Shown one piece after another: positions 2,999-52,428 of a stretch of DNA of 64,000 nt. A model generated the notes under the pieces. The model made no database searches and was not told the origin of the DNA. It was given only the letters and a program-made list of their open reading frames with translations. Numbering within the stretch: position 1 is the first letter of the stretch; each line of letters opens with the position of its first letter. Origin of the DNA: Rhypophila decipiens (taxonomy: Eukaryota; Ascomycota; Sordariomycetes; Sordariales; Naviculisporaceae). A program made the position numbers and the translations under genes. The DNA lies in assembly GCA_033297075.1 (NCBI GenBank), contig MU858108.1, positions 1-64,000 on the forward strand. Direction: 5' to 3'.

Positions 2999-4233
2999 CT
3001 GAGCGATTTTCTAGTACAGCGTCGAGACCATAAGAGCGGGCTGGTCACGTTGCGAGATGTCCAGCTCACGGAGGGGATTGGGACATGCTAGAATATATTC
3101 ATCACGTAAACCAGGGGACAGGACTGTGTCGAGCTTAATCAAAATCATCAACGACCGAATTTTGGAAAAGTAAAAGTAAGGGCGGAATCAGATAGTTATG
3201 GATGGCGATCTTCAGGGGTAAATTCCAGCTCCTCGGGACGTATCTTTGTAATTACAGGGGTCCTCGGGGAGCCGGAGAGATAGGAACAGAACCAACTTTC
3301 ATCATCTAGACCCGATGAGCGAAATGGAGTTTTAACGTGATAGAGTTTCGCTAAGACGCATCACAATCAGCCACTAGCCCAAGATGGAGATCGAGAAACG
3401 GCCAAACCTGTCACCTCCCACCCCAAAAGACACTTTCGAAACGGTTATTGGTGATTCACACGCGCTGATGGTGCTGGAGGAAGGCGCTCCGTATGCGGCT
3501 AGTCTGACGAGATGATCAACCACCCATCACGACTTCCAAATGCCGCATTTGGGTTAACGTTACGTATATAGCTTTTAACGAAAGGACATGTTCCATTTAC
3601 AATCCCAAGGGAATTACAGAGTGATTACAAACTTGTAGCTCTAATTCCGGAGCCTAAATTGACATAAAAGTCGCATGAAAGAGCTTTCGCAAGCGGTCCG
3701 GATTCAGGGATCCCTCAGAACTGGCGGAGATAACGATTGAAGGTATCCCAAGGCGTGGGGTACCCTCCAAAGTTCACAACAAATGAGCAAGAGAGCAGCA
3801 TTATTTCTCCCAGAAAGGCATAATCCAAGTCTTGGAGCTTGAGAGCTTGTCAGCACTTCACATGCTTGGCCGAAGAATCATTGGCTTACCGGCGGAAATA
3901 TCACGCCCCCCACTCACACCACATCAGATCACAATCGCTTGGTTGAAGATATTGCCCGAATCAGGATGGCTCAATATGTGCTATTTCAGCCAATCCGATA
4001 TCTTCAACTGCAAATCCGTTCAGAGGTTTCGTTTCTTTTTCCTTCTTGACTTTTTGTTAATTTCTTGTTTAACACATGACAGGCTCACCAAACTCCGTGA
4101 CGGGCCGACTTGGAGCTCATCACCGGCCAAGACCCCCGTTTCTCCTCGTCATATGCGCAAAGCCGCAGTTGTCAATACAGCAGGTAATGTCATGCTGCGG
4201 AACAGAATATGTTTCGTTTCTTATATTATGAAA
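2999..4233. other. Intergenic region between two rhodopsin-family genes
   Basis: This is the promoter side of the 435-aa membrane protein and the 3' side of the 431-aa one. A frame of about 560 nt on the plus strand from 3832 overlaps the end of the next gene antisense and shows no family features. Nothing else was recognised. Confidence 0.5.
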
Positions 4234-5529
4234 TTATACTTCTTCTTTCTTACTATTAAAACTGCTATGATCCGATATGCTCTGCTCGCTCGACCCTCCC
4301 TGCGACGGCGGGTTAAGAATGACGTCCGGCGTCCATTTGGGGCTCAGAAAATTACCACCAGTTACTTTCACTGCCGGCAGCAGTATGTTGCTTAATCTCA
4401 AACTACCTCTCCTGTCGTGGTTGGTGTGATTATGTATGTGCGCTTGTTTGTAAGGGTGATCGTGGTCGTGAACGTGAGTATAAGTGTGTGGGTGTTCGTG
4501 GCCGTGGCCGGGGCCGTGAGAACCATGATGACCGTGGTCAAGATTATGGGAGTGCCAGCTCCCACCGTAGCTCCCGTGGTCACTGCCGTTGGAGGCCGTA
4601 CTCTTGAGAACCCCGACGCGCCGCAGAAAACCTTCAAACGGCGACTTGAGACAGGGCACCGATGCCGCAATGATGCCCATGTATGCCTCGATAGACGACC
4701 ATTTCATGATCCCAATCGTGTCCGACAACGCATCGCCGTATTTCCCGTACGGCTCCACCATCGGCAGCTTGACCACGGTTGCGACGGCCGTAAAAGCCGC
4801 CAAGCCCATGAGGAAGATGAGGATCGCCCGCTCCCGAATCGACCGTCGCACGTTCTTCAGAAACGATATCGGCGCCGTTGCTAGGAATATGTCGCTCATG
4901 ATGGCTAGCGCGCCGGTGATATATATGGCCAGGTGGGCGATCCGAGGGTCCTGGCACTGAGCTCCGGGAATCGTGGGATTCCAGATGGCGCGAATAGGCC
5001 GGCACTGCGTCAGCTGCACGATGTTGGCGGCGACGGCACATGCGATCTGGATGATGATGAGAAAGTAGAGGGGAATCTTCCACGGCCAGAGCCCCTCGCT
5101 CGTGGGGCTCTTGAGGCGGAGGAGCAGGCACGCGATGCTGATCTTGGCGAATGCGACACTCCAGCCCCAGGGCAGCTGGGAGAAGAGAAGCAACATATTG
5201 GCTTCGACTTGTTCCTCGTAAGGGACGTAGTAGCTGTGCCGACCGACGCCGTGGGGGACAGCGGCCATGAGCAAGCTGAACTGGAAAACGGTGAACATGA
5301 GGGCGAGGAGGAGAGTGGCGTCGTCCCAGCTGAAGGCGAAGCTAAAGTCGATCCCTTTCCGGCGGGTCAGGCGGGAATAGAGGCGGAGTGAAGCGAGGAA
5401 GATGGCGATGACAAAGAAGGGGATTACCGGACCGAGCAGTCGGCCGAGCATGCTTTCGTCGGGCTCTGGCGGTGGTCCAAGATCGGGGGGTGGTCCTTGA
5501 TCTCTTTGCCCGAGTTCTTCCCCCGTCAT
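4234..5529 (-). CDS. Rhodopsin/SAT4-type membrane protein 2 with histidine-rich tail
   Basis: A single-exon protein of 431 aa. The N-terminal 310 or so residues hold seven hydrophobic helices of the fungal Rhodopsin/SAT4 family, including the SWDDATLLLAL motif after helix 1, PHGVGRH, WGWSVAFAKISIACLLLRL, a loop with two cysteines (TQCRPIRAIWNP and AQCQD) and AIMSDIFLATAPI. After the last helix the cytosolic tail has an unusual stretch, roughly residues 320-375, in which histidine alternates with Gly, Asp, Thr and Asn (HGHEHPHTYTHVHDHDHP is part of it). Such a stretch is a plausible Zn/Ni/Cu-binding segment, but that is inference; the family itself is not known as a metal transporter. The tail ends in a Ser/Lys/Glu-rich region. 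The start at 5529 precedes helix 1 by about 30 residues. Confidence 0.85.
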   Translation of the reverse strand: MTGEELGQRDQGPPPDLGPPPEPDESMLGRLLGPVIPFFVIAIFLASLRLYSRLTRRKGIDFSFAFSWDDATLLLALMFTVFQFSLLMAAVPHGVGRHSYYVPYEEQVEANMLLLFSQLPWGWSVAFAKISIACLLLRLKSPTSEGLWPWKIPLYFLIIIQIACAVAANIVQLTQCRPIRAIWNPTIPGAQCQDPRIAHLAIYITGALAIMSDIFLATAPISFLKNVRRSIRERAILIFLMGLAAFTAVATVVKLPMVEPYGKYGDALSDTIGIMKWSSIEAYMGIIAASVPCLKSPFEGFLRRVGVLKSTASNGSDHGSYGGSWHSHNLDHGHHGSHGPGHGHEHPHTYTHVHDHDHPYKQAHIHNHTNHDRRGSLRLSNILLPAVKVTGGNFLSPKWTPDVILNPPSQGGSSEQSISDHSSFNSKKEEV

Positions 5530-7143
5530 GATGTTGCCAAGTCTGGCGGCGATTGCAAGCTACCCATTCGACAGAAATGCTCGACTGTTCAGGCCGGTTT
5601 ATGCAAGGAGTAGGACGGAAGAGATATCGTTCATGTCGGGTCGTGCCAAGGAGGGAGTGCGTTGAGGTATTCGGGCTGGCGTTGTGATCGACATGGCCAT
5701 CATTTACCGCGACTGGCGTGGTATCATGATGACGATGGTTGGTATGGTGAATCGTTTGTTCGGCAGTCTGCCTGCTGGTGGTGTTTAGGTTGAAAGGTGA
5801 TGGAGAGAAGATGCAAAGGTGAACCATTCTTGAAACATGTTTGCGAGTCAGTTCGGTGGCAAGGCATTGCTTGTTCGGACAGCTGCATCGGAAGATGTGT
5901 CTTGTCGTCTCTGTCGTGTCATGGAGGTCCCCGGTTCTACATCAGCCAGAGTGGACGTGGCGTTTAATACTGCGCAGGATGGGACCGAACAAGGTTTGCC
6001 AAGCACGGCATCCGGTTCACCGAGCCCCAAGGTTTACATCGGTACGATCGTAAGATGCTCAAGCAGCTTAGCGAAATAGAGTTTACCTGACATCCGGGAT
6101 CGTCCTCGTATCGGAACCACTCACGTGAATCTCCGGGGAAATTCCCTGCAGCCGCTCAAGGTGCCCCAGACCAACCGGTCCGTTCCTTTTCGCCGGGTAA
6201 CGGATCCGCGGGGCGGACAGGCTGGAGACTCGACTGAACCTTTGGAGGCAAAGCGTGGAAAATGCAAGTATGGATAAGATGGTTCTTTTTGCTTCTTTTT
6301 AAGCCCCGACCACAATGTTTATAACCCCTTTTTGGAAAACAAACATCCCCGAATGTCTCCGAGACATTGACACATCACAATTTTCCACATCGCAAAGCCG
6401 TGGAAACCTGTCTAATTGGACACATTATATTGGCATCAAAACCATTGATCTGAATGGATTACCGGTATATCCCGGCTGCCCCGTACTTTAGTATACTTAC
6501 CTTCCCTACACTCACTCCACCTGGTGTCCATGACTCCCGGTCACCGAGGTCACCAATCAAGATAGCTTTCACAGCCACAAGCAACTTCAGAACACTGCCG
6601 AGCCGAGTTGAATGTTGGATCACTGCCTTTAATCGGGCCTGAAGTCCCTTATTCTCAGGTCCAAAGACTGTCGGAATGCCATGAGTCCATGACAAAATCT
6701 GATAAAAACCATTCATTTCAGCTTACATCGTTATGTGGATTTTGTATTTTACACGCCGCCGATGCTATGCACATCAAGCTGTCAAGAAGTCACCTCATAA
6801 AACAGATCAACACTGCTAGTCTCGACATCAAGCCCACTATTGCAAACTAATTCTATGGAGATACGCTCCATTGCAAAGGTGTACGAGTACGGCACGGCAC
6901 CAACACAATCATGAGGATACCGACTGAATCAGCGGCAAGCTTCCATCCGTGATTCGATACCCTCTAGTGTAACACAACTGTTTACAGTATTCTACGGTAA
7001 ATAGTCAACTTACACTACACGACCATGGCTTTCCAACGTCAGCTTTTACAGAAACGAAGTCATTCAATGAGTGCGGAAAGGTGGACTCCTCGCACCAGGC
7101 CAAGAATCGAAAACCAGGTAATTGACAGGAAACAAAAGCAAGA
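5530..7143. other. Intergenic, no gene recognised
   Basis: About 1.6 kb between a divergent membrane-protein gene and the beta-lactamase-like gene. Only short frames without family features occur. It probably carries the promoter of the 431-aa membrane protein and that of the damaged hydrolase gene. Confidence 0.5.
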
Positions 7144-12270: not shown

Positions 12271-12355
12271 GTCACCTGCCGTGAATCGAACCCGCATGTT
12301 TCGGTGCGGTGCGGCATGAGAAGCCGCAGCACACCGCTGCACTACACAGCAGCTC
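12271..12355 (-). pseudogene. tRNA-Glu(CTC)-like relic, copy 2
   Basis: The minus strand shows a perfect A-box match (TAGTGCAGCGG), a five-pair anticodon stem GCGGC/GCCGC with loop TTCTCAT (anticodon CTC) and a B-box-like GGTTCGATTCA. The T stem pairs at only three of five positions and the acceptor arm is not regular. It is therefore a degenerate tRNA gene or the head of a tRNA-derived SINE rather than an active tRNA. Confidence 0.5.
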
Positions 12356-15501: not shown

Positions 15502-16507
15502 AGGCATGTTTGTTTGAGATTCAAGACGATATCTCGGGAGTCAAGCTGTTTGCTTCCTATTAGTTCTCACTCACTTATCAAGCCTTATAGTCAGTGGTTC
15601 CAATAAGATATGAGGATAAACAGAGTTTCGGGAAGGAGGCGGGAGGTGAATTGGTTACGGAGACTCCCGGTACGGTACGTATTCGTGTGTATGGAAGCAG
15701 CAGACTGGGGCCGGGCTGGAGGGAAGGGTCTCCTGGTCTCACTGCACGACCCTGGATTGTGCGCCGTCGATTGCGTCACCCAAAATCCTCATCAAATTTA
15801 ACAGCTGTGACGATTTTAGCTATTGCACTCTAAATGTGAGAGTGAGAAGATGTTTTCGCGAAAGATACCGTAGTCAAGATGAGGTAATTTCCATATTTCC
15901 TCATTCGGATTTCATCGCCCCCTGACTAAGCACTTGGAGAAAGGGGCTTGGCGCCGACCCGCCAGGTTAACGACTTGCGTGCTGTCGCCAAGGACCCCTG
16001 GACGTGCGGCAGTGCCGCAAATCCCAGAGTGCCATCCTGTTGGGCAACCGTATCCAGAGACAGGAGAACCTCCATGCTCCCCAAACCGTCAGAGTTGTAA
16101 TCCCGACGGCAAACCACTTTCCCATCCCAACTTACCATCAATGATTCCAGCTCACGGAGCAGCTGGACTGATGAGCGCCTTTTGTTGTTTCAATCCATCG
16201 TTTTAATCGAACCGAACGAAGAGGAATAGAATTCGCTTCAAACCACGCTCCTTACGGATTACCAACCCATTGATTTCATCGAATCGAGAACCTCGATCGG
16301 CACACCGGGACGAACAGACAGACGACAGGGACACCATACCTCATTTTTCTTTTGCACGACATTGAAATTTCATTAAACGAATCGAAGCGCGTGTTTCTCA
16401 ACGATACGCAGACTTACTCGAATCGAATGTCCGCGCGTGACCAATCCCAATAACCCCAAACTTAAGCAGCCCCCTGCGGCCCATTTCCAGCTTTATCTGC
16501 ATTAAAG
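15502..16507. other. Intergenic and promoter of the M28 peptidase-like gene
   Basis: About 1 kb without recognisable coding potential. The last 150 bases before 16508 are a plausible 5' UTR. Confidence 0.45.
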
Positions 16508-19362
16508 ATGGCGCCCGAAAAAGCCCAATACACGGCAGTGCCCCCGATACCGACGTACGACGAGGCCATTGCCGGCGGAAGCAGCTGGCACCACCTCCAA
16601 GAAGACGACCGCGCCCGCTCGCCGATCGACGATGCCAATCGCGAAACGAGAGAAGCGCAATCTTTACTCAACAACAACAATAATAACCAATCAAATACTT
16701 CTTCTTCTAGACCGGGAGGTTACAGGCCGCCGACGGTCGAGTCGGAAGACGACGACGATGGCTGGAGCTCATCAGACTCGGACACAGACGAGGCGGAACA
16801 CGTCCGGCGGGAGATGCAAGAGCTGGAGATAGAAGACCCGAATGATCGCTCGCAGTCGTCGTGGGGGAAACGGATAGGGTTCTCGCTGAACAAGTGGCAG
16901 TGGCGGTGGAAGAAATGGAGGTTACCGCAGATGCCGTCGTTCAGGAGGCGGACGACAACGAGCGAGGATGGTCCTGGCGGTGCGACGGCTACGGGGAATA
17001 ACGAGAGCGGGAATAACAATAGCAGCCAAGATTCACCCGGCCGGCGCTTCGCGTTCCCGACACTGGGAAGCACGGCCTTGTTCTTGCTCGTTGGACGGCT
17101 CCTCGCCCTCTTTTTGGTGCTCGGGTTTGTGTATCTCTTGTTTGTCAGCGACATGTTTAGCGGCATGGCGAGGCGCATGAACAGCAAGAATTTTGAACCC
17201 GAGAGCGTGCGCGTCTTTGTGCAGTCCAACATTAACCCAAAAGAAATACGGCAGAATCTGGCGCACTTCACAAAGTATGCGCATATCGCGGGCACAGAGG
17301 GTGATTACTTTTTGGCGGAGGACACCGAGAGGATATTCAGGGGCTACGGGCTGGAGGATGTCGTGATGGACGAGTACAAGGTCTATTTGAACTATCCCAA
17401 GCCTGGCGGGCGGGCGGTCGAGTTGATTGGCAAGGACGGCAAGGCGACTTGGTCGGCTAAGCTGGAGGAGGATCGCATCCCTGGGGAAGATTCGGGAAGG
17501 TTGACTGCGGCGTTTCATGGTCATTCCAAGTCTGGAGATGTCAGAGGTCCCCTGGTTTACGCTAATTATGGGTCGAGAGAGGACTTTCAGAAGCTCAAGG
17601 ATATGGGCATCGGTACGCGTGGTGCAATTGCGCTAGTCAAGTACTATGGGTCGCAGGGCGATCGCGCGTTGAAGGTCAAAGCGGCGGAGATGGCTGGCTT
17701 TGCTGGTTGTCTTATTTACAGCGATCCTGCTGATGATGGGCTTACCAGGGGCGACACAGCACCCAAGGGCCGTTATATGCCTGCGGATGGTGTGCAGAGA
17801 GGATCTGTCAGCCTGACGAGCTGGGTGGTGGGTGATGTGTTGACACCGGGCTGGGGAAGTAAGGACGGCGTGCAACAACGGGTGGCGGTCGACGAGAGCA
17901 AGGGCCTGGTCAAGATTCCCAGTCTTCCGCTGTCATCTCGTGATGCTCACGCCCTGTTGATGGCGCTGCAAGGGCACGGTCAGAAAGTTCCAGACGGCTG
18001 GGCCGGCGAGGTGCCCGGTGTCAAAGAGTGGTGGACTGGCAACCAGTCGTCGCCGATTGTGCGCTTGAAGAACGAGCAGGACGAGAACGTGAAACAGCCG
18101 ATCTGGAACGTTTATGGAAGGATAAACGGCATCGAGCAGCAGGAGAAGAAGATTATTATTGGCAACCATCGCGACTCGTGGACACTCGGAGCTACGGACC
18201 CGCACTCCGGCACAGCTGTTATGCTTGAGGTTATTCGGGTGTTTGGAGAGCTCCTGAGGAAGGGCTGGCGGCCTTTGCGCACCATCGAATTCATGTCCTG
18301 GGATGCCGAGGAGTACAACCTGATTGGGTCGACCGAATACGTGGAGCAGAATGACGAGCTCCTCAAGAAGAACGCGTTTGCCTACATCAACCTCGACACC
18401 GCCGTGACTGGCGATAGCTTCCATGCCGCCGGCTCCCCCGTGTTCAAGCAGCTCCTTCTGCAGGTTTTGAACCGCGTCGGCGATCCTGTTCACAACACCA
18501 CGCTCAGGGACCTTTTTGATAGGAGACATGGCGAGCTCGAGGGTCTCGGTGCTGGCTCTGACTACGTCGCTTTCCAAGATATTGTGGGCACTTCGTCGCT
18601 CGATTTGCACTTTGACCATGATATTGTGAACACTTCGTCGCCCTTGCACTTTGGCGACCACGCATATCCGTATCACTCGAGCTACGACACCTTTGAGTGG
18701 ATGGAGAATGTCGGAGACCCCGGTTTCATCTACCACACGTTGTTGGGCCAGATTGTCGGGCTGCTAATCTTGGAACTCGCCGATCGCCCCATTCTCCCCT
18801 TCGATATTTCGGGATTTGCCGATGCTCTGCCACGCTGGATTGATGATCTAAGCAAGTGGGCGAAAGACGAAGGAGCCGCAGGCAAGGTTTCTTTTGCCCC
18901 TCTCAAGGAAGCTGCTGGCGAGGTTACCATGGCGGCCCGACGTTTCCACAGGTGGGAGAACAAGTGGGAGAATAGCATCGTGGCGTCGAGCGGATGGGAG
19001 CCGGTTGCCCTCGGGAACACGAGAGCCGACTACAACAGCCGCATGGGCATGTTTGAGACGAATCTGCTGGATGAATATGGTGTAAGTCCTGCTCTCTCCT
19101 TTTTTGATCCTCTTGCTGTTCCAACCGGCGTGTAACTACAGCCCGATGCTGACTGACGTAATTACAGGTACCAAACCGCACCCAGTTCAAGCATGTGATT
19201 TTCGGCCCACAATTATGGTCCAGCTACGACGAGGCGTATTTCCCGGCCATCAGGGACCTCATCGCCGCAGGTGAATTCGACAAGGCGAAAGAGACCGTGC
19301 ACAAGGTCGCCGGCATCCTAAAACAGGCGGCATTCAAGCTGCTGGATGGCGGCGCCGCATAG
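16508..19362 (+). CDS. Glutamate carboxypeptidase II-like M28 metallopeptidase (TfR/Vps70-type)
   Basis: A two-exon gene (16508-19081, 19168-19362; intron GTAAGT...ATTACAG) encoding 922 aa. A disordered acidic cytosolic N-terminus of about 180 residues is followed by one membrane anchor around residues 184-214, giving a type II protein. Next come a PA domain (about 330-460) and an M28 zinc peptidase domain. Visible metal-ligand motifs match GCPII: GNHRDSW (His), TDPHSG (bridging Asp), MSWDAEEYNLIGSTEY (Glu pair), INLDTAV (Asp) and YPYHSSYDTFEWM (His). A transferrin-receptor-like dimerisation domain ends the protein. All ligands are present, so it is probably an active peptidase, likely in vacuolar or endosomal membranes as for yeast Vps70. 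VPS35 lies next door in convergent orientation; that may be coincidence. Confidence 0.92.
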
Positions 19363-45084: not shown

Positions 45085-46330
45085 TCACGGACATGATCTG
45101 ACCAGCGTTTGTCGCTCGACCCAAACCGCCACGCTCCGCATTTCCTCCGCCGAGCCATACAGACTCAGACATACATTGTCATTCAGGTACCAGTTCAGCC
45201 CTGGACTGGGTTGATCGCCTTCCTGGTTCAGCCTCGCCCAGCTCGAATACCCCCCCGTCAGCGAGTCGTCACAAATGCCCGACCACAGTTCCCGAAAGCA
45301 TCGCATCGCCAGCTCGTTGGCCAAATCCAGATCTCTCGTCGACCACTTGACGGTGACGGTGCCTTTAGGATTGATGACATCCGCGCCAGCGCCAGATCGG
45401 GGGGTAGGGGAACATGGCTTGGAGGCGAGCACGAGGTAGACCGTCTCGTCCTCTCCGTCTTGGGCCGTTGGCGGAAACTTCACACCCTCGAGCATGGCCT
45501 GCGGAAACGCGACCCCGCTGTCGGCGCCTTGCTCGCGGTTCGACTCTCGTAGCTTCTGCAGGTTCATGGGGTGGGGCCGGGGGTTGGCGGATACTTGGAG
45601 CGGTGGTCTGCCGGTGACTGCGTGGAAACATGTCAAACAAGCCGAAGAAGGATGACTCTTTAAACTTCTTACTGCTCGGTGATACTGTGTCTGATCTTCC
45701 ACTCTCATCTGCTGATGCTATCTCGGCGGCGGCTTGGATTGGGAGTTGTGTGGGAGGGGATTGGGTCCTTGGTGTGTTAATGTACTGGCCCATGGCGCGG
45801 TCCACCCAGGATTGGGAGACTCCTAGAGCAACGGCATCTGCCGCGGCGTTTTGCATTCGTTTGATGTATTCTTCGCGGATCGGCCCATCCTCCTTGTACT
45901 TGTCGCTGATGTACACGAGAGCAGGACGGGTCTCCTGGCGTGAATGTGAGAGGTCTATGTTGGCGTCAAGGTTGTCACGGTTGTGTTCCAGCCATCGGGC
46001 GACCTGCGATGTCTTTTGGTTCATTCGTAGGGGGTGTTCTTGGAGGGTAATGCGGAGGTCCTGGCGCTCATAAAACTTTTTGGCGACGCCCTCGTTTCGG
46101 TCCAGCGCCCTCTCGTCTTTCGCCGTCACGGAGAAGACCAAACCCTCGACCGAGTCGCTTGGTGCTTCGACGATGTTGGCCACGCCCCGCTGGTTGATCT
46201 GCCATCGGTAGCCCTGCAGAGTGCCCCTGCCCATGAAGGAGCTTCCGGGACATCGCTTGGCCATCTGCTCGAGCCAGAGATTGCTGCCATAGGCGAAGTA
46301 GAGGCGGCTGCCATCTCTCCGACCTGCCAT
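45085..46330 (-). CDS. Gamma-glutamyl cyclotransferase-like (AIG2/GGCT fold) protein 1
   Basis: A two-exon gene (46330-45673, 45617-45085; intron GTAAGA...CACGCAG) encoding 396 aa. The GGCT/AIG2 glycine-rich substrate loop is YFAYGSNL (residues 11-18). The catalytic-type Glu is Glu80 in LDRNEGVAKKFYER. QRGVANIVEA, VEGLVFSV and ALVYISDKYKEDGPIREEYI are further family landmarks. Known GGCT-fold enzymes split gamma-glutamyl amines or peptides, releasing 5-oxoproline. Exon 2 adds about 175 residues with no clear family, including VTVKWSTRDLDLANELAMRC and GLNWYLNDNVCLSLYG, likely a small alpha/beta domain. It sits head to head, 1.3 kb from an amidoligase gene, and a second such pair follows. The start at 46330 is the first ATG. 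Confidence 0.87.
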
Positions 46331-47630
46331 TTTGCTGCGATTGCTTTCAAATGATTTCAAACTGGTTTCACGGGGAAGCCCATTCGTAAGATGTCTATTA
46401 AGGTCCGACAGTGACGGCGACTTGAAGAGGAGAAAAAAGGGAAAAGAATTCCAAGTCCGTAGTAAGTGTGCGAGTGAGGGGAAGTTGGAGTGCCGCCGTC
46501 GCTGTCATTAGAGCCCAAAATGAAGCACCGATTGGCTGAAACAACCCTGTTAGACCCGCTTATGCATCGGCACCCGAGTATGGTTTTACAGGGGTATAGG
46601 AATTGTTACCATATTAAACCTTGTAAAACCTATAGCACTATACCCGAGTTTAAAGTTGGGTAGCCGCTTTAACGAAAAACACGGAGTACATACTGTGCGC
46701 AGCAGCCCTGGTTTCCGGCTCACCTTCTCAATTTGGTTGCCATCACATCATGGACTCAGACCAACGGGTTGCCAGTGCAAATGGTTGCTTGGTTTGAAGG
46801 GGAGTGGAGCTCGAGCACCCGAATCAGCTAATCAGCATCAGCCACGATTTTTACTCACTCCCGAACGAGGCTCAGTGTAAGGGCTTGGTGAGCACAAGAG
46901 GGAAGAAGACTGAAGTGTCAGGCGCGATGATGGAACGATGATGCTATGGCTACCTGCTAAAGGCTAGTAAACTAAGCGTGAGAGTTGGGTGGGTATTGAA
47001 CTCTGGCCCCTTTTTTCCTTCCTCTGGGGCCTTCCCTCTTCTTCTTATCTCGCCCGCAAGTCTTAGACAGCTTGAGCAGGCCAGTCTACTACATTCTACC
47101 TAGCGTCATGCCTTTATAAGCCTCCTGCAGCGGTACAGTCTGCGCGCGCGGGGGTTCTATGCGAGCTTATCGCGGGCAACTCGCGAGAGTCCCTGTGAGG
47201 CTCTGACACTCAACGAGCTGCTTTTCTCTCAACGGAAAATGCAATATCTGCACAGATTTCATGGCAATATCCGCACATATGACACGAATTGAAGGGATAA
47301 AAAAAGAGGCTGAAAGAGCGTTGATTTCTAGGTAAATTGAAACAAGAAAAAGGGGGGATGGTTGCACACTTCTTAGAGAGGAATCAGGCCCCAGAATGAC
47401 CCACACAGCACATCTTTCATTGGGCTTAACATGGTTCGTATTAACGGGCGCGTTAACCGCCGGCAGATTGATTCCCGATTCTTCACTTTTCGAAGCCTGA
47501 TCCAAACATCTTTAAGCGTGGCCAACAAGTTCATAGTTCATTAATCGTAGGAGAGCCGCTCTTCAGGAAACCTGTTCATACCTTAGCCTCTTCTGTCGCG
47601 TCAATTTAAAATCCTTACTCGTATCGTGCG
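46331..47630. promoter_or_regulatory. Shared intergenic region of GGCT-like 1 and amidoligase 1
   Basis: 1.3 kb between divergent start codons, longer than the 931 bases separating the second pair. It contains dispersed repeat copy C (47279-47410) and a short inverted repeat around 46590-46645. No other gene was seen. It probably carries both promoters. Confidence 0.5.
47279..47410 (+). repeat. Dispersed repeat, copy C
   Basis: It starts atgacacgaattgaag, then gaggctgaaagagcgttgat and a ggatggttgcacacttctta block, the same order as copies A and B near 33.4 and 34.5 kb but more diverged. It is inserted about 220 bases upstream of the amidoligase 1 start. Confidence 0.6.
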
Positions 47631-48755
47631 ATGGCGGGCCCAACACCACAATACAGTCTTGGTGTCGAAATCGAAATGGTGTCAAAACCCCACAAGATCA
47701 GAGACAATCTTGGTGAGAAGCATGCCCTCTATTACGGGAAGCTGGCCAAGGCCCTCCGGAACAGAGGTCTCCAGGCAGCACACAACGACTTGACTCAGCA
47801 ACGGTGGCGGTCTACCGACTACAACAAGTGGTACATCACCAAGGATGGCTCTCTCGGACATCACCGAGACAACTTCAGTGAGTTGAGAGTTGAATCACTT
47901 GATTAACTCCACAACGGTCAGACACGTGGGCTGATGTGTATCATGATTACCAGTCCCGATGGAGGCCGTCTCACCGGTCCTTAACACGGCCAAGGACTGG
48001 GACAAGGAGATCGACACTTTCTGGGAAGCTGCGAGGGCCGTTTTCCATATGCCGGAGCGCCATGAAAAGTGCGGGAGCCACGTCCATGTCTCAAGAGGCA
48101 AATACCAGCAATTTACTCTTGACGAGCTTAAGACCATCGGCTACGGCATTGTCATTTACGAAAATCTAGTCTTCCATCTTCTCATGCCATACCGACAAGA
48201 AAACCCCTACTGCCAGGGCAACAGCGTGAGTTCCGTGCAGCTCCAGAACTGCCGAGGGAACCATATAGCCATTGCAAACACTATCCGAGCCGCGACAAGC
48301 CCTGATCAGTTGAGGAACGTTATGCAAACCAGTAGGTATGTGTTGTGGAACTTTGACAACGTCGCCACCGGCCAGTCGGGCACCATAGAATTCCGTGGCG
48401 GCCGCTTCCTCCGGGGCGAGGTCCGCACCAAACGCTGGATGACCTTTGCCGTGGCTTTCATCCATGCTATGCTTCGCATAGTGAGTCCTCCCCTTACTGA
48501 TATCATCCAACTGCTGACTGCCGGGTATGGTTCAACTAACACACCGCGCACAAAGAACGATCTCGCTACCAGTGGCGTTTCGATTCCGGACATTGATGCC
48601 CTGTACTCCGAGATCAAGAAGGCCGCACGACAGCTACGCATGAAAAGGTTCTTGCCCGACCAATACCAGGTCCTAAACGAGACGCTACCGTAAGTATTTG
48701 ACAACAGACTGATACAGATTGGGGCTAATACTTGGCTTGGGATAGGTCCACCTGA
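47631..48755 (+). CDS. Putative amidoligase (COOH-NH2 ligase, GS-like fold) 1
   Basis: A four-exon model (47631-47877, 47954-48480, 48556-48689, 48746-48755) encoding 305 aa. Features of the fungal Amidoligase_2 family: the N-terminal strand with the metal-binding ExE pair (GVEIEM, Glu13/Glu15), YNKWYITKDGSL, PMEAVSPVLNT at the first junction, CGSHVHVS (His125/His127), a WNFDN segment, and EFRGGR with the conserved Arg followed by RTKRWMTF. These are the expected ATP/Mg and substrate positions of the glutamine-synthetase-like ligase fold. Such enzymes are predicted to form amide or isopeptide bonds using ATP; no fungal substrate is known to me. The last exon adds only three residues. It is divergent from GGCT-like 1 and paralogous to amidoligase 2. 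Confidence 0.87.
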
Positions 48756-49121
48756 GGCATGAAAGGCGACGTAGCGTTTTAGACACATATATAGTGTAAG
48801 TGCTTAGCGAGGTTGAATATCTGTTTTGTGCTTTAGGTTCTCAACGGTAGTCACTGGCTCGGAAGTAGCTTGAAAACATTGTGAACGGTTAGAATAAGGT
48901 GTGTGCAGTGGTTAAGAGTTTGGCTTTTGCGGTTCAAGAAGGTTACCGACTACCATTGATACGGATGTGATGTGGAGTTTGGCTTGCTATGAGGCCGCTA
49001 GTGAATAAAGCAGATAGTCTAATACTGTTGAAAAGAGTGAATTACTAGATCCGGTTTGAACTAAGACAAAGTAAAAATATCCAAAGTCGGGGCCAGCGAG
49101 ATATGACGACCCAGGCTTCTT
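48756..49121. other. Intergenic between the two gene pairs
   Basis: 366 bases between the convergent 3' ends of amidoligase 1 and GGCT-like 2. No feature was recognised beyond probable 3' UTRs. Confidence 0.45.
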
Positions 49122-50003
49122 TCAGAGCACTGAGCGCCGGCGGCTTCTCTTGAGATACCACTCCACGTCGTCATCCGGAGACACCGTCCGAATAACCGGC
49201 GCGTAGTAACTGCTATAGTTATTGTTTCTCTGAGTCGAGAGCGGACGCCCCTGATAGTCGTATTGCGGGTCCTCCACTTCATCCCTCCACCGTCCACCAC
49301 TTTTGCTTCTCCTGCTGGGTTGTGTTGAACTATTGTACCTGTAACCGTCACTACTATAATATTCCTCATCGCCATCTCTGCCCTCCTTCTCCCTCGCCCT
49401 TATCTCTACCACCGCTGATCGCGACCGCACCCTCGACCCCTGTGGTAACAGAGACACCGGCACTGACCGCTCAGGGATATACTCACGTACCACATTCTCA
49501 AAAAACGCCTTAGGAATGTCCATTGCAACCCCGTCCTCAATTCCCGCATTAATTCTCCGTATATACTCCTCCCGCGGCTCCCCTCTCTGCACATAGGTCT
49601 CGCTCATGTAAACCAGTACATTGTTTTCCATCCGCCCCGACTTTTCCCTTCGGCTATTGCCCACAGCCACAGCACCACCACGGTCCACAATCCTTCTCGT
49701 CCGCATTTCGTCCGAGGCCGGATAGACAATCATGGGCAACGAGACCTTGCTATAACACCCCCTGTGCACACCCTCACTACGATCAAGGCGGGCCTCGTCA
49801 TCGCTGGAGCTGCTAAGCCAGTAGACCAGGCCGTGCACGCAGTTCCCTGGGCTTGGGATAATATTGGCAAACCCTCGCTGGTTAATCTGCCATTTGTAGT
49901 CGGGAAGAACGGCGCGGCCGTGAAAGAATGAAGCCGGACAGCGCTTGGCCATTTGGGTGAGGGAGAGGTTGCTGCCGTAGGCGAAGTAGAGGCAGCCTGT
50001 CAT
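49122..50003 (-). CDS. Gamma-glutamyl cyclotransferase-like (AIG2/GGCT fold) protein 2
   Basis: A single-exon protein of 293 aa, clearly paralogous to GGCT-like 1. The substrate loop is YFAYGSNL (residues 6-13), followed by LTQMAKRCPASFFHGRAVLP and WQINQRGFANI. The catalytic-type Glu77 lies in LDRSEGVHRGCY, and VLVYMSETYVQRGEPREEYI matches the corresponding part of copy 1. After about residue 190 it lacks the extra domain of copy 1 and instead has an Arg/Ser/Tyr-rich disordered tail (for example SRRSKSGGRWRDE and a Tyr-rich DYQGRPLSTQRNNNYSSYY segment). All core residues are intact, so activity is plausible. It is divergent from amidoligase 2 with 931 bases between starts, reproducing the arrangement of the first pair. 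Confidence 0.87.
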   Translation of the reverse strand: MTGCLYFAYGSNLSLTQMAKRCPASFFHGRAVLPDYKWQINQRGFANIIPSPGNCVHGLVYWLSSSSDDEARLDRSEGVHRGCYSKVSLPMIVYPASDEMRTRRIVDRGGAVAVGNSRREKSGRMENNVLVYMSETYVQRGEPREEYIRRINAGIEDGVAMDIPKAFFENVVREYIPERSVPVSLLPQGSRVRSRSAVVEIRAREKEGRDGDEEYYSSDGYRYNSSTQPSRRSKSGGRWRDEVEDPQYDYQGRPLSTQRNNNYSSYYAPVIRTVSPDDDVEWYLKRSRRRSVL

Positions 50004-50934
50004 GATTTCTTTTTATTATGTTGTCCTTGCTCACTGATGCTTTCTGAGAGATTTGATGAAAAACGGATTTGATATTGCTGGTATGTAGCACGAAGCGTGC
50101 GGTATTCGACGTTTGCTTGAGCGGGGTTGGGATGTTTGAGTGTGGGTTGAAACGTGGAGGTGATGGTGTGAGACAGCTGCCTAAGGATTCTCTGACCAAA
50201 GGGGCCCCATAGAGTCAGATAGATGGTGGCCCTATGAGGCATCCTGACCAAACACTGCGTGCCAAAACTGACTAATCAATCCGTCATGGGGGCTATTGTC
50301 GCTTGGAGTAACCCCCTTCATGCAGAAGCACGAGACATGCAGCTATTCGAGGCTGAGGCGGAGGATCATTTACTTCACTCGGCTGCAGTGTTGCCCAAGT
50401 GACTCGTGAGTGACACAGGGGTTGGGCCGACTCTGCGAAGGCCCGTCCGCGGTCCTTCAAATCCAATCACCGGCGAACACATAAGCAGACAAAAATCAAG
50501 TGCCCACGGTGCCATAGGTATTATCGTCCAATCTATTCTTTGGGCCCTGCACACTCGGATTTAAGCATGGCCAGTGGCTTCCCCAGTACAGTGCGGGAGT
50601 GATCAAACCCCATCCAGTACACCCATCTCCCTTTCAAGCGTCCAACCAACCGAGTTTACCTTATCAGCGAGAGCAATGTCGCTGATGCAGACAAACAGCC
50701 ACGTCCACATCTGGGCTTCTGGTGCTAATTTCGTTCTATGCCGGCGACCAATATGAGTAACCCCTGTGCATTCAGCTGCGCCAAAGTATTGTCTAGTAAT
50801 TCATGTTCAAAATGGCAACTCAACTCAGGCCCTGCGGTCCCCCGACCGGTCGCCTTTGTCCAGCCATCCTTCCAGTCATCCTTTGCAGTGTTTTACAGTC
50901 CTTCGCTCCCCCATTTCCCCGAGATTGAACAGAA
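50004..50934. promoter_or_regulatory. Shared intergenic region of GGCT-like 2 and amidoligase 2
   Basis: 931 bases between divergent start codons. No coding frame of note. It is expected to hold promoters for both genes of the second pair; comparison with the first pair's spacer could reveal shared motifs, but none was obvious by eye. Confidence 0.5.
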
Positions 50935-52428
50935 ATGGCGAGCTCATACTCCTTTGGCATTGAGATCGAACTGATCGCAGAGCCTCGTCACGTTTCGGGT
51001 CCACATAGGCACCGCCGCGCCGTGCTGTACGAGGATCTCGCCTCGGCCATTCGCTTCCAAGGGTCCTACGCCGACGCAGACACACTCCAGGAAAGGTACC
51101 GCAAGCATCCAGAGCACTACAACAAGTGGTGGATCACAAAGGACGGTTCGCTCGGCAACCCTGAAGACCCTCTGAGTCAGTTCGATCTTGAACATCGGTC
51201 CTTGGAATACTGTAGGGCGTGGCGAAGGATACCTGCTGACTTGCCACTACAGTCCCTCTAGAAGCCGTCTCTCCCATCCTCAACACCGCCAACCCCTGGG
51301 AGCGTGAGATCGACAGTTTCTGGGACGCATACCACATGGTCTTCCTCATGCCCGAACCCTCCAACCTCTGCGGTAGCCACGTACACGTGTCGCCCTCCCC
51401 GACTAGGTGGTTCACCATCACTGAGCTCCAGAGCATCGCTTTTGGCACCATCTACTACGAAGACCTAATCCTCGAGTTACTACCCCCTTCCCGTCGCGGA
51501 AACAAGTACTGCGTGCCAAACACTTGTCACGCGAGAGCGCTGCGGTCGTTGGATGGGCGGGGCCTAGCGTATGTGTGGGAGATGATCAAGATACAAACAG
51601 ATGAGCAGAGCCTTAGAGATTTCATGCAAGATCCGGGCGGCGAAGAGCCGAGGAATCCTCGATACGTCCTGTGGAACTTTGATAATATCCTTAGTTCCGG
51701 GTCGGTTGAGTTTCGCGGGGGAAGGGGGTTGCGAGGTCCGGTGAGGACCAAGAGGTGGGCTGCGTTTGTGGTGGCGTTTGTGCATTTTTGTCTCATGCAG
51801 GTGGGTTATTTTCTTTGAGTTAGCAACTGCTGTGGCTTCCCAGGTGCTGATTATTGTTTGTAGGACTTTCACTGCTGGCCCAGCTGGCCACAATACCGTT
51901 TCACGGTGCCGGACATGCAGCAGTTCTGGACGGGGATCCGGAATGCAGCACGAGATATCAGTGTCAATGATAGCCTGCCGTCCGACTGGCAGGCTATGTC
52001 TGAGATGGCGATGTACGTACTTCACAATATCATTGCTTTACAGGCGGCTGACGTTGTGCGACAGTGATGGCATGTTGGAGGGAGTGTGCGATGCTTTTGA
52101 TGGCTCTGGTATTTATAGCGACTCAGATTTGGACTCGATGAATGGCAAGTCAGACTCGGACTTTACCGGGTCTGAGCTTGATGATGATGAGCTTGATGAT
52201 GATGAGCTTGATGATGATGAGCTTGATGATGATGAGCTTGATGATGATGAGCTTGATGATGATGAGCTTGATGATGATGAGAGTGATGATGATGAGCTCG
52301 GTGATGGTGAGCTTGAAGGTTATGAGCTTGGCAGTGATCCGTGTTATGATGAGCAGCTTGATGACGAGAGCTTGAGGATGATGGACTCGATTATGATGAA
52401 CTTGATTACGATGAGCTTGGGGAGATAA
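50935..52428 (+). CDS. Putative amidoligase (COOH-NH2 ligase, GS-like fold) 2 with acidic repeat tail
   Basis: A four-exon model (50935-51175, 51253-51800, 51864-52012, 52065-52428) encoding 433 aa. The core parallels amidoligase 1: GIEIEL (Glu10/Glu12), YNKWWITKDGSL, PLEAVSPILNTA, CGSHVHVS (His123/His125), YVLWNFDN and EFRGGRGLRGPVRTKRW. Exon 3 gives HCWPSWPQYRF and ends SEMAM. The first intron uses donor GTCAGT. The last intron is taken as 52013-52064 (52 nt, branch-like gctgac). The tail of about 120 residues is unique to this copy: seven ELDDD repeats, then degenerate ones, from a 15-bp DNA repeat. Ligase activity is predicted from fold only. If exon 4 is not used, the protein would end shortly after exon 3. 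Confidence 0.83.
52174..52338 (+). repeat. 15-bp tandem repeat coding for ELDDD
   Basis: Seven exact gagcttgatgatgat units (52174-52278) followed by four degenerate ones. It is in frame with amidoligase 2 and gives an acidic, probably disordered tail. Confidence 0.85.

Follow-up and report, generated by a model that had tools for sequence, protein, structure and literature searches.

What would a fungus do with two amidoligases and two gamma-glutamyl cyclotransferases (GGCTs) encoded side by side? The question is raised by a stretch of 64,000 nucleotides from Rhypophila decipiens, a member of the Naviculisporaceae in the Sordariales (assembly GCA_033297075.1, contig MU858108.1, positions 1 to 64,000; hereafter the window). 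Positions 45085–52428 carry, in the order G1 (−), A1 (+), G2 (−), A2 (+), two GGCT-type cyclotransferases (G1 and G2) and two amidoligases of family PF12224 (A1 and A2). The original prediction, made from the letters of this DNA, had described the same divergent pair occurring twice, side by side; coordinates and gene models show that its order and strands were exact, and the arrangement is real and non-random.

We give about even odds to the reading that these genes are a conserved four-gene block for forming and cleaving a gamma-glutamyl-type amide on an amine. Each ligase would use ATP to join the carboxylate of glutamate, or of a glutamyl group, to an amine X, giving gamma-Glu-X, from which the cyclotransferases would free X with release of 5-oxoproline. 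X, which might be a small amine, an amino acid or a peptide, would thus be capped and later freed, and each of the two diverged pairs would have a substrate, place or stage of its own. The predicted folds and active sites support the match of a bond-maker with a gamma-glutamyl bond-breaker, and the recurrence of the four-gene block in other fungi suggests that the genes work together. If this reading is true, fungi keep a conserved route for reversible amine capping.

Linkage of the two families in other fungi

Homologues were listed for A1 (best 120 of 122), G2 (all 118) and G1 (best 120 of 309), with proteins clustered at 90%. Two genes were assigned to the same contig when the length of the longest contig was identical in two lists, a proxy that gives a lower bound. 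By this measure, a listed cyclotransferase lies on 40 of 102 distinct amidoligase contigs listed, the contig of the window being one of the 40. Linkage was found in 11 of the 20 contigs of 3–20 kb and in 17 of the 33 contigs of 3–100 kb, the latter against 0.12 expected for unlinked genes (six GGCT genes per 40 Mb), and in an offset control, which compared lengths displaced by as much as 60 bases, the mean stayed at or below 0.28 in every size bin. The two families thus share contigs in other fungi at a rate far above that of unlinked genes, which supports the original prediction. Chance linkage is rejected by the control and by the expectation for unlinked genes, except in contigs below 3 kb.

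The linkage is concentrated in the ligase clades of A1 and A2: 31 of their 64 contigs hold a listed GGCT (a lower bound), against 1 of 22 among the remaining ligases of the tree (Fisher p = 2e-4). The difference may be inflated, since G1 and G2 of this cluster served as seeds of the GGCT lists and partners of other ligase clades may have escaped them. Homologues that are usually unlinked, which would have spoken against a paired function, are therefore not what the A1 and A2 clades show. Pairing as a general property of fungal amidoligases is not supported, given the figure for the other clades. The R. decipiens genome itself holds four other PF12224 amidoligases (loci L001, L002, L004 and L005, on contigs C205, C44, C235 and C114), with open frames of 427–547 amino acids (aa) far diverged from A1 and A2; their contigs gave no GGCT hit, and since the amidoligase search that listed them did not list A1 itself, further diverged copies may be missed.

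All four genes share one contig in six further ascomycetes beside R. decipiens (for which A2 was taken from the window): Diplogelasinospora grovesii, Xylaria telfairii, Xylariaceae sp. FL1651, Nemania sp. NC0429, Hypoxylon sp. FL1857 and Xylaria cf. heliscus. In this survey G1/G2 and A1/A2 labels follow the best BLAST score, and species names are those of the sources. Usable gene numbers elsewhere agree with G1-A1-G2-A2 as to order, strands being read in R. decipiens only: X. hypoxylon has G1 at g8704, A1 at g8703 and G2 at g8702; F. gaditjirri has G1 at 3414, A1 at 3415 and G2 at 3416; C. trifolii has G1 at 6385, A1 at 6384 and A2 at 6382; and F. anthophilum has G1 at 5267 and G2 at 5265. The recurring block is an argument for a functional link that database names, "hypothetical protein" and "swim zinc finger domain protein", have hidden. 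Sources give the latter label to several A1 relatives although PF12224 is the only domain given for them, and it is likely a propagated misnaming.

Predicted folds and active sites

The main exons of A1 and A2 score 33.0 and 34.2 bits against PF12224 (Amidoligase_2; curated cut-off 22), and the cyclotransferase frames of G1 and G2 score 34.4 and 31.3 bits against PF06094 (curated cut-off 22.8). The core motifs first noticed in the four genes are intact. Both ligases carry VEIE or IEIE, CGSHVHVS and EFRGGR; in an A1 alignment of 63 rows hand-picked from 120 listed, E15, H125, E228 and R230 are invariant, and E13 and H127 are present in at least 90% of rows. The copies are also as clearly diverged as had been described, with 135 of 299 aligned residues identical between A1 and A2 (~45%) and 40% identity over the matched part of G1 and G2.

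The AlphaFold model of A1 matches the fold of glutamine synthetase (GS), YbdK and glutamate-cysteine ligase. By this model A1, and A2 by its similarity, has the GS/glutamate-cysteine-ligase fold together with the conserved Glu, His and Arg of the family, as expected of a PF12224 member. The predicted fold is shared with this superfamily, but A1 gave no match to Protein Data Bank sequences up to E 5, and identity in the fold matches is 9–15% among the matches listed. PafA (the Pup ligase) and Dop (the depupylase) are among the weaker fold matches, with E 0.015–0.045.

G1 and G2 carry the active-site motifs of GGCT: YFAYGSNL in both, and an E-G step inside LDRNEGV and LDRSEGV, respectively. Glu80-Gly81 of G1 is invariant in 56 aligned rows and Glu77-Gly78 of G2 in 32, rows hand-picked from 238 listed; we take this glutamate to be the catalytic Glu of GGCT. 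Both proteins match human GGCT (2rbh, 3cry, 2i5t, 2pn7) in sequence; G2 can be aligned with it through the YGSN loop and the Glu, and the predicted structure of G1 has its fold. The human enzyme shares the LDxxEGV segment with both fungal proteins but lacks the long extra C-terminal parts that they carry. In G1, residues ~235–396 form a further predicted alpha/beta part without a clear fold match. Many Sordariomycete homologues cover 93–99% of G1, and its C-terminal region is spanned by homologues from several genera (both among the best 120 of 309).

Age and inheritance of the two pairs

Both pairs are old, and their inheritance has been parallel. The ligase tree separates an A1 clade (45 rows; Shimodaira–Hasegawa-like approximate likelihood ratio test (SH-aLRT) support 97) from an A2 clade (34 rows, 99), and the GGCT tree sets a clade of 37 G1 rows (98) against a side of 32 rows (98), of which 31 are labelled G2 and one G1. 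A recent local duplication is rejected, since members of both the A1 and the A2 clade are found in many genera and the two proteins are only ~45% identical. Whether A1 and A2, or G1 and G2, are sister groups is not settled by the trees, which neither show nor reject it. When three other ligases of the genome were included in a careful ligase tree, A1 and A2 came apart, and the approximately unbiased test gave no rejection of their grouping (p 0.32). For the cyclotransferases, a tree of 44 hand-picked rows placed other fungal GGCTs beside G2. With eleven rows removed, including most of the long-branched ones, G1 and G2 came together with weak support (69/32), and the alternative of G1 with two other GGCTs was likewise not rejected in this reduced set (p 0.32).

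A1 and A2 have two introns in common, at the same aligned codon and in the same phase. The first of these is absent from the ligases on C235 and C44, and in the ligase on C205 a phase-1 intron at this position can be spliced out. This intron may therefore be ancestral, and the common introns, which had been considered as proof of an A1/A2 duplication and were dropped as such, fit common descent of the two ligases without being decisive for sister status.

Distances in the two enzyme families run in parallel. Mantel correlations, computed over 19, 16, 14 and 10 contigs for the four ligase–cyclotransferase combinations, were 0.72 for A1-G1, 0.93 for A1-G2, 0.65 for A2-G1 and 0.95 for A2-G2, and no permutation of 999 was as high. 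Parallel distances in all four combinations fit inheritance as a block. The original prediction is thus supported as regards old pairs and parallel inheritance; as regards neighbours, correlations of 0.65–0.95 in every combination carry no pair-specific signal. In the comparison of trees that had been proposed as a check, distances are parallel between the families, and an independent origin of the pairs is neither shown nor rejected.

Coupled enzymes or linked genes

Several observations weigh against the make-and-break reading, in addition to the seeding of the GGCT lists described above. Below 3 kb, 1 of 15 contigs was linked, a figure that the control also reaches (mean 0.28, maximum 2) and that amounts to noise. 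Only 40 of 217 listed GGCT contigs hold a listed amidoligase, so that the G families extend beyond the pairing. Some Sordariales, Thermothelomyces among them, are named in the G2 list with G2-type cyclotransferases and not in the A1 list (best 120 of 122) with an A1/A2 ligase, through loss or the limits of the search. The distance correlations reveal no pair-specific co-evolution, the ligases showing no preference for their divergent neighbour. Finally, the acids and amines used by GS-fold ligases are diverse, and it is only from the partner enzyme that the gamma-glutamyl nature of the bond is deduced.

Part of this evidence would suit genes that are linked without being coupled, whose cohesion would come from common regulation or a low rate of recombination, with the ligases acting, for example, on an amine and the GGCTs in the breakdown of gamma-glutamyl amino acids. 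The 177 of 217 listed GGCT contigs without a listed ligase and the lack of pair-specific co-evolution fit such an arrangement, but linkage has been kept across many genera and phage operons offer a parallel (see below), and we regard it as quite improbable. The candidate make-and-remove system of the original prediction is supported in part, by the linkage, by the age of its pairs and by the fit of folds and active sites; specificity of each ligase for its neighbour does not appear in the distances.

Comparison with known systems

Neighbourhoods of amidoligase and GGCT genes are known from phages, where we observe them, and reportedly from fungi; what is new here is the ancient duplicated quartet and the conserved extra C-terminal region of G1. 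Neighbours of the Aig2 family are said to have been noted beside fungal amidoligases in the Pfam text for PF12224 and by Iyer et al. in 2009. The same two families lie close together in several fungi of our survey, but here the pair occurs twice, as G1-A1-G2-A2, and is old and diverged, with an extra region in G1. If the block is a make-and-break system, its four genes could be deleted jointly or singly in saprobic ascomycetes, which would make the prediction reportedly dating from 2009 directly testable. In the open-access literature searched (titles, abstract openings and passages), which did not include the 2009 paper, no description of the fungal quartet was found.

The logic of adding and then removing gamma-Glu is that of butirosin formation, in which the ligase BtrJ attaches gamma-Glu and the GGCT-fold protein BtrG removes it. 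BtrJ differs from the fungal enzymes in being an ATP-grasp ligase. By analogy, the quartet might serve one-way protection and deprotection in a biosynthesis, the ligase shielding an amine and the cyclotransferase stripping it at the end. The bond chemistry would equal that of make-and-break, and the gene of a Zn2Cys6 regulator has its end at a distance of 4.4 kb, but a Pfam scan of 20 of the 29 non-quartet open reading frames (ORFs) of at least 150 aa in the window found no polyketide-synthase, peptide-synthetase or other assembly-line domain, nor any biosynthetic cluster. We consider this explanation rather unlikely.

The search for bacterial relatives of A1 gave 34 pattern matches among genome contigs, none of them confirmed, and one locus among viral contigs (L021). 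At L021 and in Pseudomonas phage Bjorn (NC_042103, L022), a COOH-NH2 ligase, an amidoligase, a glutamine amidotransferase, a RimK-like ATP-grasp protein and a cyclotransferase lie in one gene run. Amidoligase and cyclotransferase are thus encoded together, as in the fungal quartet, but the other three enzymes (COOH-NH2 ligase, GATase and ATP-grasp) were absent from the scanned ORFs of the window. Over the best matched segment, the L021 amidoligase shares 23% identity with A1, and the cyclotransferase of L021 is of the short VYGSLRxG type. Amidoligase genes adjoin AIG2/GGCT genes, or lie close to them, in C. difficile Tn6164 (PMC3485107), Arthrobacter phages (PMC5513430), LUZ24-like phages (PMC3890496) and Clostridium prophages (PMC11318856), and a genome paper gives the amidoligase domain as enriched in Sclerotinia and Botrytis (PMC3158057).

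The phage operons, in which amidoligase and cyclotransferase are joined by a RimK-like ATP-grasp protein, bear on a further explanation, in which the ligases would tag peptides or proteins with a gamma-glutamyl or another amino-acid group, the GGCTs would remove the tag and the C-terminal region of G1 would choose the target. The weak matches of A1 to PafA and Dop and the coverage of the G1 region in several genera fit such tagging. Against it stand the closest fold matches of A1, which are small-molecule ligases, and human GGCT, which acts on small gamma-glutamyl amino acids; the Pfam scans, the only search made for them, found no tag or target gene. Judged from sequences and models, tagging by the quartet is possible, if improbable. 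Its boldest form is an ancient two-channel system of filamentous ascomycetes with two ligase/eraser pairs, in each of which one enzyme would place a gamma-glutamyl mark on a class of peptides or proteins and the other erase it. Such a system, with the G1 C-terminal region choosing the target, would be the eukaryotic equivalent of the amidoligase operons of phages; it is very unlikely.

Gene models and surroundings of the quartet

The features of the locus are collected in Table 1. Within each pair the genes are divergent, and A1 and G2 are convergent. The gene model of A1 is identical to database protein P0001, the top entry of its homologue list and itself named R. decipiens, and that of G1 to P0239 (100% identity over 396 aa). 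The A2 model is predicted from DNA alone, which applies above all to the last exon, running through the repeat to the stop at 52428; the repeat comprises 16.5 copies of its unit and is predicted to give A2 an acidic tail.

Table 1. Coordinates of the quartet and associated features in the window.
Feature	Position	Strand	Details
G1, GGCT-type gamma-glutamyl cyclotransferase with conserved extra C-terminal region	46330..45085	−	396 aa; one intron, 45672-45618
G1 second exon	45085..45617	−	
G1-A1 spacer, divergent intergenic, 1.3 kb	46331..47630	.	from coordinates
A1, PF12224 amidoligase	47631..48755	+	305 aa; introns 47878-47953, 48481-48555, 48690-48745
G2, GGCT-type gamma-glutamyl cyclotransferase	50003..49122	−	293 aa; no intron
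G2-A2 spacer, divergent intergenic, 0.9 kb	50004..50934	.	from coordinates
A2, PF12224 amidoligase	50935..52428	+	440 aa in model; introns 51176-51252, 51801-51863, 52013-52043
15-bp tandem repeat in A2 last exon	52173..52419	+	(LDDDE)n tail if last exon correct

On one side, the quartet is flanked by the Zn2Cys6 regulator and an AA9 oxygenase, and on the other by an alcohol dehydrogenase, an Alg9-like transferase and a Gar1/Naf1 protein. At 16466-19132, 26 kb from the quartet, lies an M28 peptidase with PA and TFR-dimer domains, presumably the architecture of glutamate carboxypeptidase II; its closeness to the quartet is probably a coincidence. Rfam gave no family at the gathering threshold in the window, and ARAGORN placed a tRNA-Glu (ctc) on the minus strand at 12271-12352.

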